64,000 bases of DNA. It comes from Occultella gossypii. Lineage in GTDB: Bacteria; Actinomycetota; Actinomycetes; Actinomycetales; Beutenbergiaceae. Location: the NCBI RefSeq assembly GCF_019947135.1, contig NZ_JAGSHT010000013.1, forward strand, positions 186,001-250,000, written 5' to 3'. Each line of letters opens with the position of its first letter. Position 1 is the stretch's first letter. Below are positions 31,515 through 54,204 of the stretch, piece by piece. The notes beneath the pieces were generated by a model. That model had not been told where the DNA came from and made no database searches. It saw only the letters and a program-made list of their open reading frames with translations. Both the position numbers and the translations under genes were made by a program.

Positions 31515-31589
<75 letters not shown>

Positions 31590-33698: not shown

Positions 33699-34766
33699 TC
33701 AGTTCGCGCGCCGCCGCGCCGCCGCGGCGGCCAGGTTCCGGAGCACCGACTCGGTCGTGTCCCAGGACATGCAGGCATCCGTGACCGACTGGCCGTAGGT
33801 GAGCCCCGTCGACGCCGGCTCCTGCCGCCCGGCCACCAGGAAGCTCTCCAGCATCACCCCGGCCACACCGCGCTCCCCCGCCGCGACGATCTGCGCGATC
33901 TCCCGGGCCACCTCGGCCTGGCGGACGTGGTCCTTGCCACTGTTGCCGTGGCTGGCGTCCACCACGAGGCGCCGGGCCAGGCCGGACCGCTCGAGCACGT
34001 CGAGGGCGGCCGTGAGCGCGGGCGGGGCGTAGTTCGGTCCCCGTCGGCCGCCACGCAGGATCACGTGGGAGTCAGGGTTGCCCGCGGTGTTGACGACGGC
34101 GGCCCGGCCGGCCGCGTCCACGCCGAGGAAGGTCTGCGGTGCGGACGCGGCGACGCAACCGTCCGCGGCCACCTGGACGTCGCCGTCGGAGGAGTTCTTG
34201 AACCCGATCGGCATGGACAGCCCGGAGGCCAGCTGCCGATGCACCTGGGACTCGACCGTGCGCGCCCCGATCGCGCCGTAGCTGACGGTGTCCGCGATGT
34301 ACTGCGGCGAGGTCGTCTCGAGGAACTCGCACCCGGCGCTCACGCCCGCGGCGAGCACGTCGAGCAGCACGGTGCGGGCCAGGCGCAGGCCACGCGGGAT
34401 GTCGTAGCTGCCATCGAGCCCGGGGTCGTTGATCAGGCCCTTCCAGCCCGTGGTGGTGCGGGGCTTCTCGAAGTAGACCCGCATCACCACGTGCAGGTCG
34501 TCGCTCAGCTCCGCCGCGAGCGCGGAGAGCCGGTGGGCGTACTCCACTGCCGCGACCGGGTCGTGCACCGAGCACGGGCCGACCACCGCGAGCAGGCGGT
34601 CGTCCCGGCCGGCGAGGATGTCCTGCGTGTGTGCGCGGGAGCGGGCCACCAGGTCGGCGGTCGCGTCCGGCAGCGGCTGCTCGGCGAGCACCTCGCTCGG
34701 GGTCGGCAGCGGCTCCATGCGCAGCACGCGCAGGTCGTTCGTGCGTTCGGTCTGGATGGGGTTCAT
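33699..34766 (-). CDS. 3-deoxy-7-phosphoheptulonate synthase (class I, AroFGH type)
   Basis: 355 residues, ATG at 34766. Condenses PEP and erythrose-4-phosphate, the first step of aromatic amino-acid synthesis. Class I features: VVGPCSVHDPVAA, RVYFEKPRTTTGWKGLINDP, DTVSYGAIGARTVESQ, MPIGFKNSSDG, VILRGG and VDASHGNS. Its leader encodes a 20-residue peptide with Tyr-Trp-Phe (34884-34946), which suggests attenuation by aromatic tRNA charging. Confidence 0.94.
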   Translation of the reverse strand: MNPIQTERTNDLRVLRMEPLPTPSEVLAEQPLPDATADLVARSRAHTQDILAGRDDRLLAVVGPCSVHDPVAAVEYAHRLSALAAELSDDLHVVMRVYFEKPRTTTGWKGLINDPGLDGSYDIPRGLRLARTVLLDVLAAGVSAGCEFLETTSPQYIADTVSYGAIGARTVESQVHRQLASGLSMPIGFKNSSDGDVQVAADGCVAASAPQTFLGVDAAGRAAVVNTAGNPDSHVILRGGRRGPNYAPPALTAALDVLERSGLARRLVVDASHGNSGKDHVRQAEVAREIAQIVAAGERGVAGVMLESFLVAGRQEPASTGLTYGQSVTDACMSWDTTESVLRNLAAAAARRRAN

Positions 34767-34883
34767 CTCCGGGGTGTCCTTCCGGTCCGGGCGGATCACC
34801 CCAGGTCCCGGAGCGCCCGCCTCAATGGCGAAAGGGCGGGACCGGTAATGGTCCACGCCCTGTGTCGGCTCCGGTTGCGCGCG
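34767..34883 (-). promoter_or_regulatory. attenuator-like region of the DAHP synthase gene
   Basis: On the minus strand, segment B (34834-34843, ggtcccgccc) can pair with A upstream (34850-34860, gggcgtggacc) or with C downstream (34804-34821, ggcgggc and cgggacc parts), so the two hairpins exclude each other. In addition 34862-34869 pairs with 34909-34916 inside the leader peptide gene, a stem that grows to about 12 bp with one mismatch. No U-run follows, so the outcome could be Rho-dependent termination or translation control. Confidence 0.6.
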
Positions 34884-34946
34884 TCAGTGGCTGAGCGCGA
34901 CGGCCGGGGCCGACACGCTAAACCAATACTGCTGTGCGCAACGCAT
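34884..34946 (-). CDS. aromatic leader peptide (Tyr-Trp-Phe)
   Basis: 20 residues: MRCAQQ-YWF-SVSAPAVALSH. Codons 7-9 are TAT TGG TTT, one for each aromatic amino acid. A TATCCT -10 hexamer (34953-34958) lies six bases before the ATG, so the transcript is probably leaderless. A ribosome stalled at codons 7-9 would cover 34909-34916, one arm of the downstream stem. Comparable to the aroR leader of Corynebacterium glutamicum in principle. Confidence 0.75.
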   Translation of the reverse strand: MRCAQQYWFSVSAPAVALSH

Positions 34947-35016
34947 GAGGTGAGGATACACACCCGGTGAGGCTGCGCCGTCGGGCGTCTCACCACACCC
35001 GGACCCAGATACCCGG

Positions 35017-35118
35017 GCGGCGTGCCGTCCCCGCGCCTAGCCTTGGGGTGGGGCCCCAACGACAGGTGCGGCGTGCCATCCGCGCACCTAGCCTTGGGGT
35101 GGGGCCCCAACGACAGGA
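35017..35118. repeat. two 51-bp tandem repeats upstream of SDR gene
   Basis: Copies start at 35017 and 35068 (gcggcgtgcc in both) and share ctagccttggggtggggccc and a TTGGGG/CCCCAA hairpin. The second copy supplies the AGGAG ribosome site of the SDR gene. The duplication may have copied part of a promoter/leader. Confidence 0.9.
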
Positions 35119-35125
35119 GAGCGCG

Positions 35126-35884
35126 ATGACTGACCTTCCATTCGGCGACCGGGTTGCGATCGTGACCGGCGCCGGCTCGGGCCTGGGCGAGGCGATCGCG
35201 AAGGAGCTCGCGGCCGGCGGCGCCGCGGTGGTGGTCAGCGACCTGAACCTCGACAGCGCGACCCGGGTCTCCGAGGAGATCGTGGCGGCCGGCGGCAGCG
35301 CGTCCCCGTTCGCGCACGACGTGGCGAGCGCGGACACCTCGCGCGCTCTCGTGGCGCACACAGTGACCACGTACGGCGGCCTGCATCTGGCCGTGAACAA
35401 CGCCGGCATCGGCGGCGCGCAAGCGCCCGTCGGCGAGGTCGACCTGACCGACTGGAACCGGGTCATCGACATCAACCTGAACGGCGTCCTGTACGGGATG
35501 CGGTACCAGATCCCGGAGATGCTCAAGGATCCGCGGCGCAGCGCGATCGTGAACATGGCCTCGATCCATGGCGCGGTGGCGGCGCCCGGCAACGCCGCCT
35601 ACACCGCGGCCAAGCACGCCATCGTCGGGCTCACCAAGAACGCGGCCGCGGAGTACGGCCCGGCGGGCCTGCGGATCAACTCCGTCGGCCCCGCGTACAT
35701 CGACACCCCGCTCCTGCTGGACCTGCCCGACGAGTTCCGTGCCGCCCTGATCGGCAAGCACCCGCTCGGCCGGCTCGGGCTGCCCGAGGAGGTCTCCGCG
35801 CTGGTCTGCTTCCTGCTCTCGGACCGGGCCAGCTTCATCACCGGCAGCTACCACCTGGTCGACGGCGGCTACACGGCCGTGTAA
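35126..35884 (+). CDS. short-chain dehydrogenase/reductase (classical SDR)
   Basis: 252 residues. TGAGSGLG (NAD(P)-binding), NNAGIG, catalytic Ser in NMASIHG, YTAAK (Tyr-X3-Lys) and the VDGGYTAV ending. Asp at the end of the second strand (VVVSDLNLD) favours NAD(H). Oxidises or reduces an unknown alcohol/ketone. It faces the DAHP synthase gene divergently and converges on the prp operon. Confidence 0.9.
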   Translation: MTDLPFGDRVAIVTGAGSGLGEAIAKELAAGGAAVVVSDLNLDSATRVSEEIVAAGGSASPFAHDVASADTSRALVAHTVTTYGGLHLAVNNAGIGGAQAPVGEVDLTDWNRVIDINLNGVLYGMRYQIPEMLKDPRRSAIVNMASIHGAVAAPGNAAYTAAKHAIVGLTKNAAAEYGPAGLRINSVGPAYIDTPLLLDLPDEFRAALIGKHPLGRLGLPEEVSALVCFLLSDRASFITGSYHLVDGGYTAV

Positions 35885-52228: not shown

Positions 52229-52354
52229 CCGATCACAATAGGCGGCGGCACCGACACCGCACACTCGCCTGTGTCCATCGGGCCCGAACCCGGCCCGAAC
52301 CCCACTGTGCCGGGCACTGGCCCGCCGCGACCCGCACCCTCCACGGGGCATGAA

Positions 52355-52446
52355 GGACCCCCCGCGCACCCATCAGAGCCCACCTGCCCTTGCTGCCTTC
52401 CGGCCCTGGGGGGATTCAGCGGGATGACGCCACACGGGGGGTCTGC
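52355..52446 (-). ncRNA. ffs: signal recognition particle RNA (4.5S type)
   Basis: The minus strand carries the conserved apical core GGGCCGGAAGGCAGCAAGGGC (52386-52406 on this strand), flanked by complementary ends GGCAGACCCCCCG and CGGGGGGTCC. Small bacterial SRP RNA, about 92 bases, no Alu domain. It precedes dnaX, a common actinobacterial arrangement. Confidence 0.93.
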
Positions 52447-54116: not shown

Positions 54117-54204
54117 GGAGGATTCGCCTAGTGGCCTATGGCGCACGCTTGGAAAGCGTGTTGGGTGCAAGCCCTCGGGGGTTCGAATCCCCCATCCTCC
54201 GCCA
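54117..54204 (+). tRNA. tRNA-Ser(GGA), probable integration site
   Basis: Acceptor arms GGAGGAT/ATCCTCC, anticodon stem CACGC/GCGTG with loop TTGGAAA (anticodon GGA), a long variable arm as in serine tRNAs, T-loop TTCGAAT, discriminator G and an encoded CCA (54202-54204). An integrase gene starts 168 bp downstream. Confidence 0.96.
54180..54204 (+). other. probable attL core at tRNA-Ser 3' end
   Basis: Integrases of this type recombine at the 3' half of tRNA genes; the T-arm and acceptor end (ggttcgaatcccccatcctc region) would be the shared core. I found no second copy to the end of the window, so attR is presumably outside. Confidence 0.45.

Follow-up and report, generated by a model that had tools for sequence, protein, structure and literature searches.

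The locus described here raises the question of whether one short reading frame, in which codons for Tyr, Trp and Phe stand side by side ahead of a class I DAHP synthase gene, can report on all three aromatic amino acids at once. DAHP synthase sets the flow into all three, and its gene is used in amino-acid production strains; if the answer is yes, a conserved three-residue leader at the pathway entry lets one RNA switch watch the whole pathway. Leaders that sense a single residue are textbook knowledge. The trp and pheA attenuators of E. coli combine competing helices with control codons placed in a short leader ORF: the leader is translated from a Shine-Dalgarno (SD) sequence, the control codons lie inside strand 1, and the antiterminator forms on the 5' arm of a terminator that ends in a U-run. 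A terminator is also part of the trpL/rnTrpL attenuator of Sinorhizobium meliloti. We propose that the reading frame studied here is quite probably a ribosome-mediated attenuator that senses charged tRNA-Tyr, tRNA-Trp and tRNA-Phe where the aromatic pathway begins.

The window, by which we mean the whole analysed stretch of 64,000 nucleotides from Occultella gossypii, carries on its minus strand a gene at 33699..34766 (ATG at 34766) whose product exceeded the profile cut-offs of NF009395 (481 bits, cut-off 343) and TIGR00034 (475 bits, cut-off 173), as a class I DAHP synthase of the aroF/G/H type. Its SD sequence, GGAAGGA (34777..34783), lies inside a further predicted hairpin. Upstream on the same strand lies the leader ORF MRCAQQYWFSVSAPAVALSH, 20 codons and a TGA stop at 34884..34946, with the putative control codons TAT TGG TTT (Tyr-Trp-Phe) at 34920..34928; the hexamer TATCCT (34953..34958), the presumed -10 box of a leaderless promoter, ends six bases 5' of its ATG. 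A first-pass annotation had named the adjoining aromatic codons, the hexamer and its spacing, and the identity of the gene, and all of these leader features are real and lie where it placed them. In the 5.84-Mb genome the pattern CAGTATTGGTTT has a single occurrence, and none of 200 dinucleotide shuffles folds as well as the RNA from 34946 to 34760 (z −4.9). A consensus scan of 34650–35150 returned no sigma-70-type promoter and no intrinsic terminator. No Rfam family reached its gathering score in the window leader or in the leaders of 18 loci including L002, and at E values up to 5 the search gave only a sub-threshold microRNA match.

We analyzed the upstream regions of class I DAHP synthase genes collected from many genomes with a detector for ORFs of 10–45 codons in which three or more of six residues are aromatic and which have TAnnnT 5–9 nt before the start. 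With settings chosen after the first relatives were seen, the detector matched 123 of 182 actinobacterial loci, the window locus counted in. In a control set of 179 loci, which omits L042, L044 and L045 of the 182, it matched 120 loci, none of the 179 reverse complements and 3 of 895 shuffles, and among 302 tiles of the window on both strands its one match was the tile with the leader. The survey leaves out 22 places, 21 in family f4 and one in f6, as well as the partial match G356, and the leader share would be 123/204 if all 22 lacked a leader. The 59 loci with no detected leader include the sampled loci of f4, a family that appears close to Bifidobacterium, and all 23 of family f35; at one of our loci, L095, a Trp/Tyr leader ORF is present yet was missed by the detector. 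A further sample of one family, 30 loci drawn from 67 places with seven in genomes already sampled, had the leader at 29. The window has many GC-rich hairpins (stems of 8 bp or more number 130 and 136 on its two strands), as the reading of a chance ORF in a structured 5' region would have it, but the reverse-complement, shuffle and tile results and the presence of the leader in all three other genomes of the genus that we examined (MRCARQYWFSESAPAVALSH, MRCAQQYWFSVSAPAVALSH and MRCAPRYWFSVSAPAVALSL) make that reading extremely improbable.

By these matches, many other Actinobacteria have a predicted leader of this kind in front of their class I DAHP synthase gene. The 152 leaders represent 127 distinct ORFs, and in 137 of them Tyr, Trp and Phe fall within nine residues, the remainder having Phe and Tyr only (12) or Trp and Tyr only (3); Trp belongs to the aromatic cluster in 140, and the exact string YWF occurs in 14. 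The first-pass annotation had named loss of the aromatic codons in relatives as grounds for giving up the attenuator, and the alignment of relatives went the other way: the cluster is kept upstream of DAHP synthase genes, together with some compensating base changes in the RNA. Many clades also share an APGGA-like stretch in the conserved ORF, and the C-terminal part varies between clades; the clade names used here (f1, arthro, myco and so on) are our own and were given from peptide patterns.

The start of the leader appears to coincide with the start of its transcript. TAnnnT stands 6 or 7 nt 5' of the start in 116 of 123 leaders (the detector required 5–9 nt), and other spacings within 0–24 nt gave two matches in all. 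Mean SD energy was −3.5 kcal at leader starts, −3.4 kcal in shuffled sequences and −5.8 kcal at DAHP synthase starts, and SD-like energies below −5 kcal were found at 30 of 123 leader starts versus 81 of 123 DAHP synthase starts. Because the −10 box stands at this spacing, 6 nt 5' of the ATG in the window, and the leaders on average have no SD signal, we infer a leaderless transcript with its 5' end at the ATG. AroR, the leader of Corynebacterium glutamicum, reportedly has a leaderless start as well, according to work by Neshat in 2014.

Codon choice in the leaders is the reverse of that in the genes they precede. The leaders use TAT 151 times, TAC 7, TTT 118 and TTC 17 (TAT/TTT in 269 of 293), whereas the DAHP synthase gene portions analysed use TAT 3 times, TAC 444, TTT 8 and TTC 586 (TAC/TTC in 1030 of 1041). 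The distance from the first base of the last aromatic codon to a pairing strand GGCYC is likewise fixed, at 8 nt in 108 leaders and 11 nt in 30, or 138 of 152. Together, codon choice, fixed spacing and the missing average SD signal point to ribosome pausing rather than to the peptide. A functional small peptide could account for the conservation of the ORF and for its APGGA-like stretch; its C-terminal part, however, is clade-specific, the preference for TAT and TTT is a matter of RNA or decoding rather than of the peptide, and, as read by eye in many clades, the Ala-Pro-Gly-Gly-Ala codons coincide with an RNA hairpin, GGCUCC-N4-GGAGCC. We consider such a peptide very unlikely. A general sensor of slow translation, in which the rare TAT and TTT codons answer any slow-down and not three amino acids, has in its favour that these codons are nearly missing from the analysed portions of the downstream genes. 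Trp, however, has no synonymous codon and is kept all the same in 140 of 152 leaders (137 with Tyr and Phe, 3 with Tyr), and the gene behind the leader encodes the entry enzyme of the aromatic pathway, so that we regard a general sensor as unlikely. The sensor part of the attenuator, with its cluster of aromatic codons, is by contrast well supported.

Several described leaders resemble this one in part. C. glutamicum AroR carries Phe-Tyr-Phe (PMC4046766, Mentz 2013, in the available part of the paper) and, like the leader of the window, has clustered aromatic codons in an ORF immediately upstream of a class I DAHP synthase gene; the window differs in having one Tyr, one Trp and one Phe codon consecutively. 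The first-pass annotation took known leaders such as AroR to sense one aromatic residue, a description that does not fit the Phe-Tyr-Phe of AroR (PMC4046766, same part), although the accessible portion of a review reports that C. glutamicum aroF transcription is raised by Phe limitation, with no effect of Tyr (PMC11802643). Of the S. meliloti trpL/rnTrpL leader, the available text of PMC10117765 describes a likewise leaderless small ORF that starts at AUG ahead of an aromatic pathway gene, with the difference that it is a tryptophan attenuator ahead of trpE. According to the accessible part of PMC8079986, leuL, trpL, ilvL and thrL of Streptomyces lividans are leaderless too and several lack a typical U-rich terminator, and none of the eight leaders it lists, which relate to Leu, Trp, Ala, Ile, Met and Thr, precedes a DAHP synthase gene. 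The available portion of a 2005 survey of Actinobacteria reports that Phe and Tyr operons there had no conserved RNA structure ahead of them (PMC1262725), and that of another 2005 study predicts attenuators ahead of DAHPS-tyrA operons in two Vibrio species (PMC1173090). Our search of full-text literature, with most subscription papers outside it, returned no description of a Tyr-Trp-Phe leader. We regard the leader studied here as an AroR-like variant that includes Tyr, Trp and Phe and that occurs more widely than the literature we found describes. This suggests a family reaching across much of Actinobacteria, with the published AroR as one corner.

Downstream of the aromatic cluster, the RNA is organized into a series of alternative helices. 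Strand 1 (GTGTCGGC, 34909..34916) and the segment GCCGACAC at 34862–34869 of strand 2 (CCGGAGCCGACAC, 34862..34874, recognized by folding, covariation and a helix test) are perfect complements, as the first-pass annotation had held, and congener L003 has one mismatch in this pairing (GAGTCGGC). Helix 1:2 would compete with P1, a hairpin of the minimum free energy structure within the leader ORF (34889..34924) whose 5' strand takes in bases of the Trp and Phe codons and in which strand 1 pairs with a stretch further along the ORF; hairpins akin to P1 in the ORFs of other clades were read by eye. Next comes hairpin T (34834..34860), terminator-like and recognized by covariation, in which GGGCGTGGACC (34860–34850) pairs with GGTCCCGCCC (34843–34834). 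The latter can instead pair downstream with GGCGGG (34821–34816), so that the earlier proposal of two possible partners for this segment holds. Behind T lies a degenerate U-tract, the tail TTTCGCCATT (34824..34833), whose CGCC can pair with GGCG at 34821–34818 (P5). Covariation also marks strand 3 (GGCGGGCGCTCCGG, 34808..34821), with strand 4, the T tail and strand 2 as possible partners, and, together with the sequence, strand 4 (CCGCC, 34790..34794); the CCGGAGC of strand 2 can pair with GCTCCGG at 34814–34808.

We examined covariation in an alignment, A1, of 26 sequences from the window family and neighbouring groups, using three helices drawn from member L091. Of the cells in these helices, 95.3% were paired, compared with 32–50% in slid registers. 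Cells changed on both sides numbered 53 versus 19.6 in shuffles, a value reached in 0 of 500, and pairs with changes on both sides numbered 7 versus 4.2; further pair types came to 14, below all 500 shuffles (mean 15.5). The core of helix 1:2, GGCUCCGG:CCGGAGCC, was paired in 94.2% of cells, with one pair exchanging UA and CG and one C.A mismatch in the genus of the window. This core overlaps the arms of the first-pass annotation by three pairs only (GGC:GCC), and the 8-bp helix described there is the window's own extension of it. Hairpin T was paired in 94.9% of cells with changes on both sides at 5 of 10 pairs, and helix 3:4, between T and the SD sequence, in 97.7% with one cell changed on both sides. 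In the same alignment the 2:3 helix was paired in 72% of cells and the SD helix in 60%. In a set of 107 sequences, one of them proteobacterial (L078), helix 1:2 beat shuffles in 87 (8 of 12 in the window family) and the 2:3 pairing in 41, including 23 of 26 arthro, 5 of 12 window-family and 2 of 22 myco sequences; the SD pairing did so in 26 of 118. A pairing of the tail with downstream sequence is possible in 68 of 123 loci (CGCC/GGCG 36, CGTC/GACG 26, CGTC/GGCG 6, CGCC/GACG 0), and the motif is absent in 55.

Where a stalled ribosome would stand relative to strand 1 bears directly on how these helices might be used. The usual footprint of a 70S ribosome reaches some 12 nt downstream, counted from the A-site codon's first base, so that in the window the ribosome would cover 0 of the 8 nt of the arm at 34909–34916 with Tyr in the A site, 3 of 8 with Trp and 6 of 8 with Phe. 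The first-pass annotation had a ribosome stalled at the aromatic codons mask this arm. That part of its model is not supported in this form: in 138 of 152 leaders the pairing strand begins just past the cluster, at the fixed distance of 8 or 11 nt, and a stall at the earlier codons would therefore leave strand 1 exposed.

We propose the following sequence of events. Transcription would start at the ATG, and a ribosome would translate the leaderless ORF. If charged tRNA-Tyr, tRNA-Trp or tRNA-Phe runs low, it would pause at the Tyr-Trp-Phe codons, of which Tyr and Phe are written as TAT and TTT, forms avoided by the downstream genes. The pause would open the base of hairpin P1 and, since strand 1 lies just downstream of the cluster, leave most of strand 1 free for strand 2, whereas a ribosome running on would cover strand 1. 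Helix 1:2 would free strand 3 for strand 4 and thereby favour access to the SD sequence of the DAHP synthase gene; without it, strand 2 could take strand 3, and strand 4 would be available to the SD region. Premature termination at hairpin T may contribute as well. A paused ribosome would thus probably raise production of the enzyme when any of Tyr, Trp or Phe is short, through translation, termination or both, and an attenuator of this kind predicts induction by each of the three starvations and loss of the response by codon swaps.

Constrained folding offers one view of this read-out. We compared the energy needed to open the SD sequence under a ribosome-sized unpaired mask placed on the aromatic codons (stall) or past them, with DAHP synthase starts assigned by a script, some of them doubtful (for example at L005, L089 and L093). 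Opening cost less under a stall in 55 of 119 sequences and more in 30 (mean −0.53 kcal; Wilcoxon p 0.002, not corrected for relatedness), compared with 95 lower and 112 higher of 357 with shuffled spacers. By group, the lower and higher counts were 16 and 1 in mycobacterial sequences, 11 and 5 in the Rhodococcus/Pseudonocardia-like, 7 and 5 in the 'apgga', 11 and 10 in the Arthrobacter-like, 4 and 3 in the window family, and 6 and 6 in the others, the effect being weak or missing in these last three groups. Three members of the genus gave 12.8 versus 16.0, 7.6 versus 11.2 and 5.7 versus 7.0 for stall versus past, and L005, whose gene start is doubtful, had the opposite sign (15.4 versus 14.8). 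Compared with free RNA, the stall changed the window family by +0.33 kcal, which goes against the model, and in a separate folding run with free RNA as the reference, 55 of 122 sequences were lower and 31 higher; the free-RNA and duplex-energy runs include the proteobacterial L064, L066 and L078. Over all sequences the computed sign fits a stall that exposes strand 1, with a small effect, and we therefore hold the sensor firmly and the read-out loosely.

The main rival to this account is that control is by transcription attenuation only, with T a regulated intrinsic terminator that RNA polymerase passes when a ribosome stalls at Tyr-Trp-Phe. Hairpin T is conserved and compensated, tails behind it are more U-rich at some loci (e.g., L013, L015 and L035), and the rise in aroF transcription under Phe limitation in the available review text (PMC11802643) is what such a mechanism would give. 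The actinobacterial sequences, however, have no upstream strand that pairs with the 5' arm of T beyond chance. By duplex energies against shuffles, the mean z was −0.10 for the leader with the T 5' arm and +0.21 for the region between them, strand 2 included; by contiguous helices, strand 2 with the T 5' arm beat shuffles in only 3 of 107 sequences, all Rhodococcus/Pseudonocardia-like, where the T finder often picks another hairpin. Strand 2 with the T 3' arm did so in 9 of 107, 8 of them among the 26 arthro sequences. In the window, T is followed by a tail, UUUCGCCAUU, that has no match in the consensus terminator scan, and of its hairpins with T-rich tails, two in all, neither is at the leader. 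The downstream pairing of the tail, with covariation in 68 of 123 loci, is odd for a plain U-tract, and helix 3:4 lies beyond T, where it is relevant in read-through RNA only. The trp-type terminator and antiterminator of the first-pass annotation thus found no counterpart in a conserved pairing with the T 5' arm, and because the classical antiterminator was not found we do not claim the plain trp model. Neither E. coli-type antiterminator pairing with the terminator 5' arm nor a U-run was found in the window system, and its RNA read-out would depart from the trp scheme. We regard transcription attenuation as the sole mode of control as rather less likely than not.

Proteobacterial leaders lend that rival further weight. 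Among 39 non-actinobacterial DAHP synthase loci, a criterion of at least four aromatics in seven residues of an ORF found aromatic leaders at 16, all proteobacterial (L047, L054, L056, L059, L060, L064–L068, L073, L075, L078, L079, L082 and L085; e.g., MNANRSFYFWYYGFPMPLAEEGVRSP), and none in the 39 reverse complements. Each of the 16 has a hairpin with a T-run (e.g., GCCGCCAGCGAACCTGGCGGCTTTTTT) downstream, and a leader strand is complementary to the terminator 5' arm over 5–9 nt, containing GGCGG in 13 of 16 and CTGGC in two, as raw counts without a chance baseline. The match is 6–9 nt long in 12 of 16 and 5 nt in four, the short matches likewise without a chance baseline, and L066 has only a distant 5-nt match of different sequence. 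In 15 of 16 the GGCGG or CTGGC strand lies 10–19 nt past the first base of the last aromatic codon, so a stall there would expose an antiterminator strand, in the same order of cluster first and pairing strand after it. By eye, several of these leaders have a TA-rich box 6–8 nt before the start and may therefore be leaderless too.

Returning to the three-residue attenuator, we suggest, tentatively and with some doubt, that one leaderless pause site reading Tyr, Trp and Phe as an OR gate commonly controls class I DAHP synthase across Actinobacteria and that Proteobacteria have a leader similar to it. The sensor layout, a dense aromatic cluster and then a pairing strand close by, would be shared while the read-outs differ, with terminator competition in Proteobacteria and, in many Actinobacteria, a relay of helices 1:2, 2:3 and 3:4 that ends at the SD sequence.

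Further leaders and loci came to light in the collections. L223 (MRNWRFYFEWGSGR) and L225 (MRMWRFYFSKAPEAETS) belong to a genus of the mycobacterial family that has small genomes and is perhaps Corynebacterium; their leaders contain MRNWRFYF and MRMWRFYF, with a 1:2 helix and a T-like hairpin by eye. In both, Trp stands shortly ahead of Phe-Tyr-Phe, a hint that AroR-like leaders may respond to Trp as well. At two Dehalococcoidia DAHP synthase loci (L071 and L080) the upstream ORFs are longer and have many Tyr and Phe residues, possibly another type of leader, and relatives of DAHP synthase are encoded on 25 contigs of a viral collection (L253–L277). Elsewhere in the window, tRNA genes lie on the plus strand at 31515–31588 and 54117–54201 and a bacterial small SRP RNA on the minus strand at 52350–52446. 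The interval that separates the leader from a divergent SDR-type oxidoreductase gene contains a 51-nt tandem duplication (35001–35102, 80% identical); each copy holds CCTAGCCTTGGGGTGG, so the duplication may be a doubled promoter or operator of the oxidoreductase gene.
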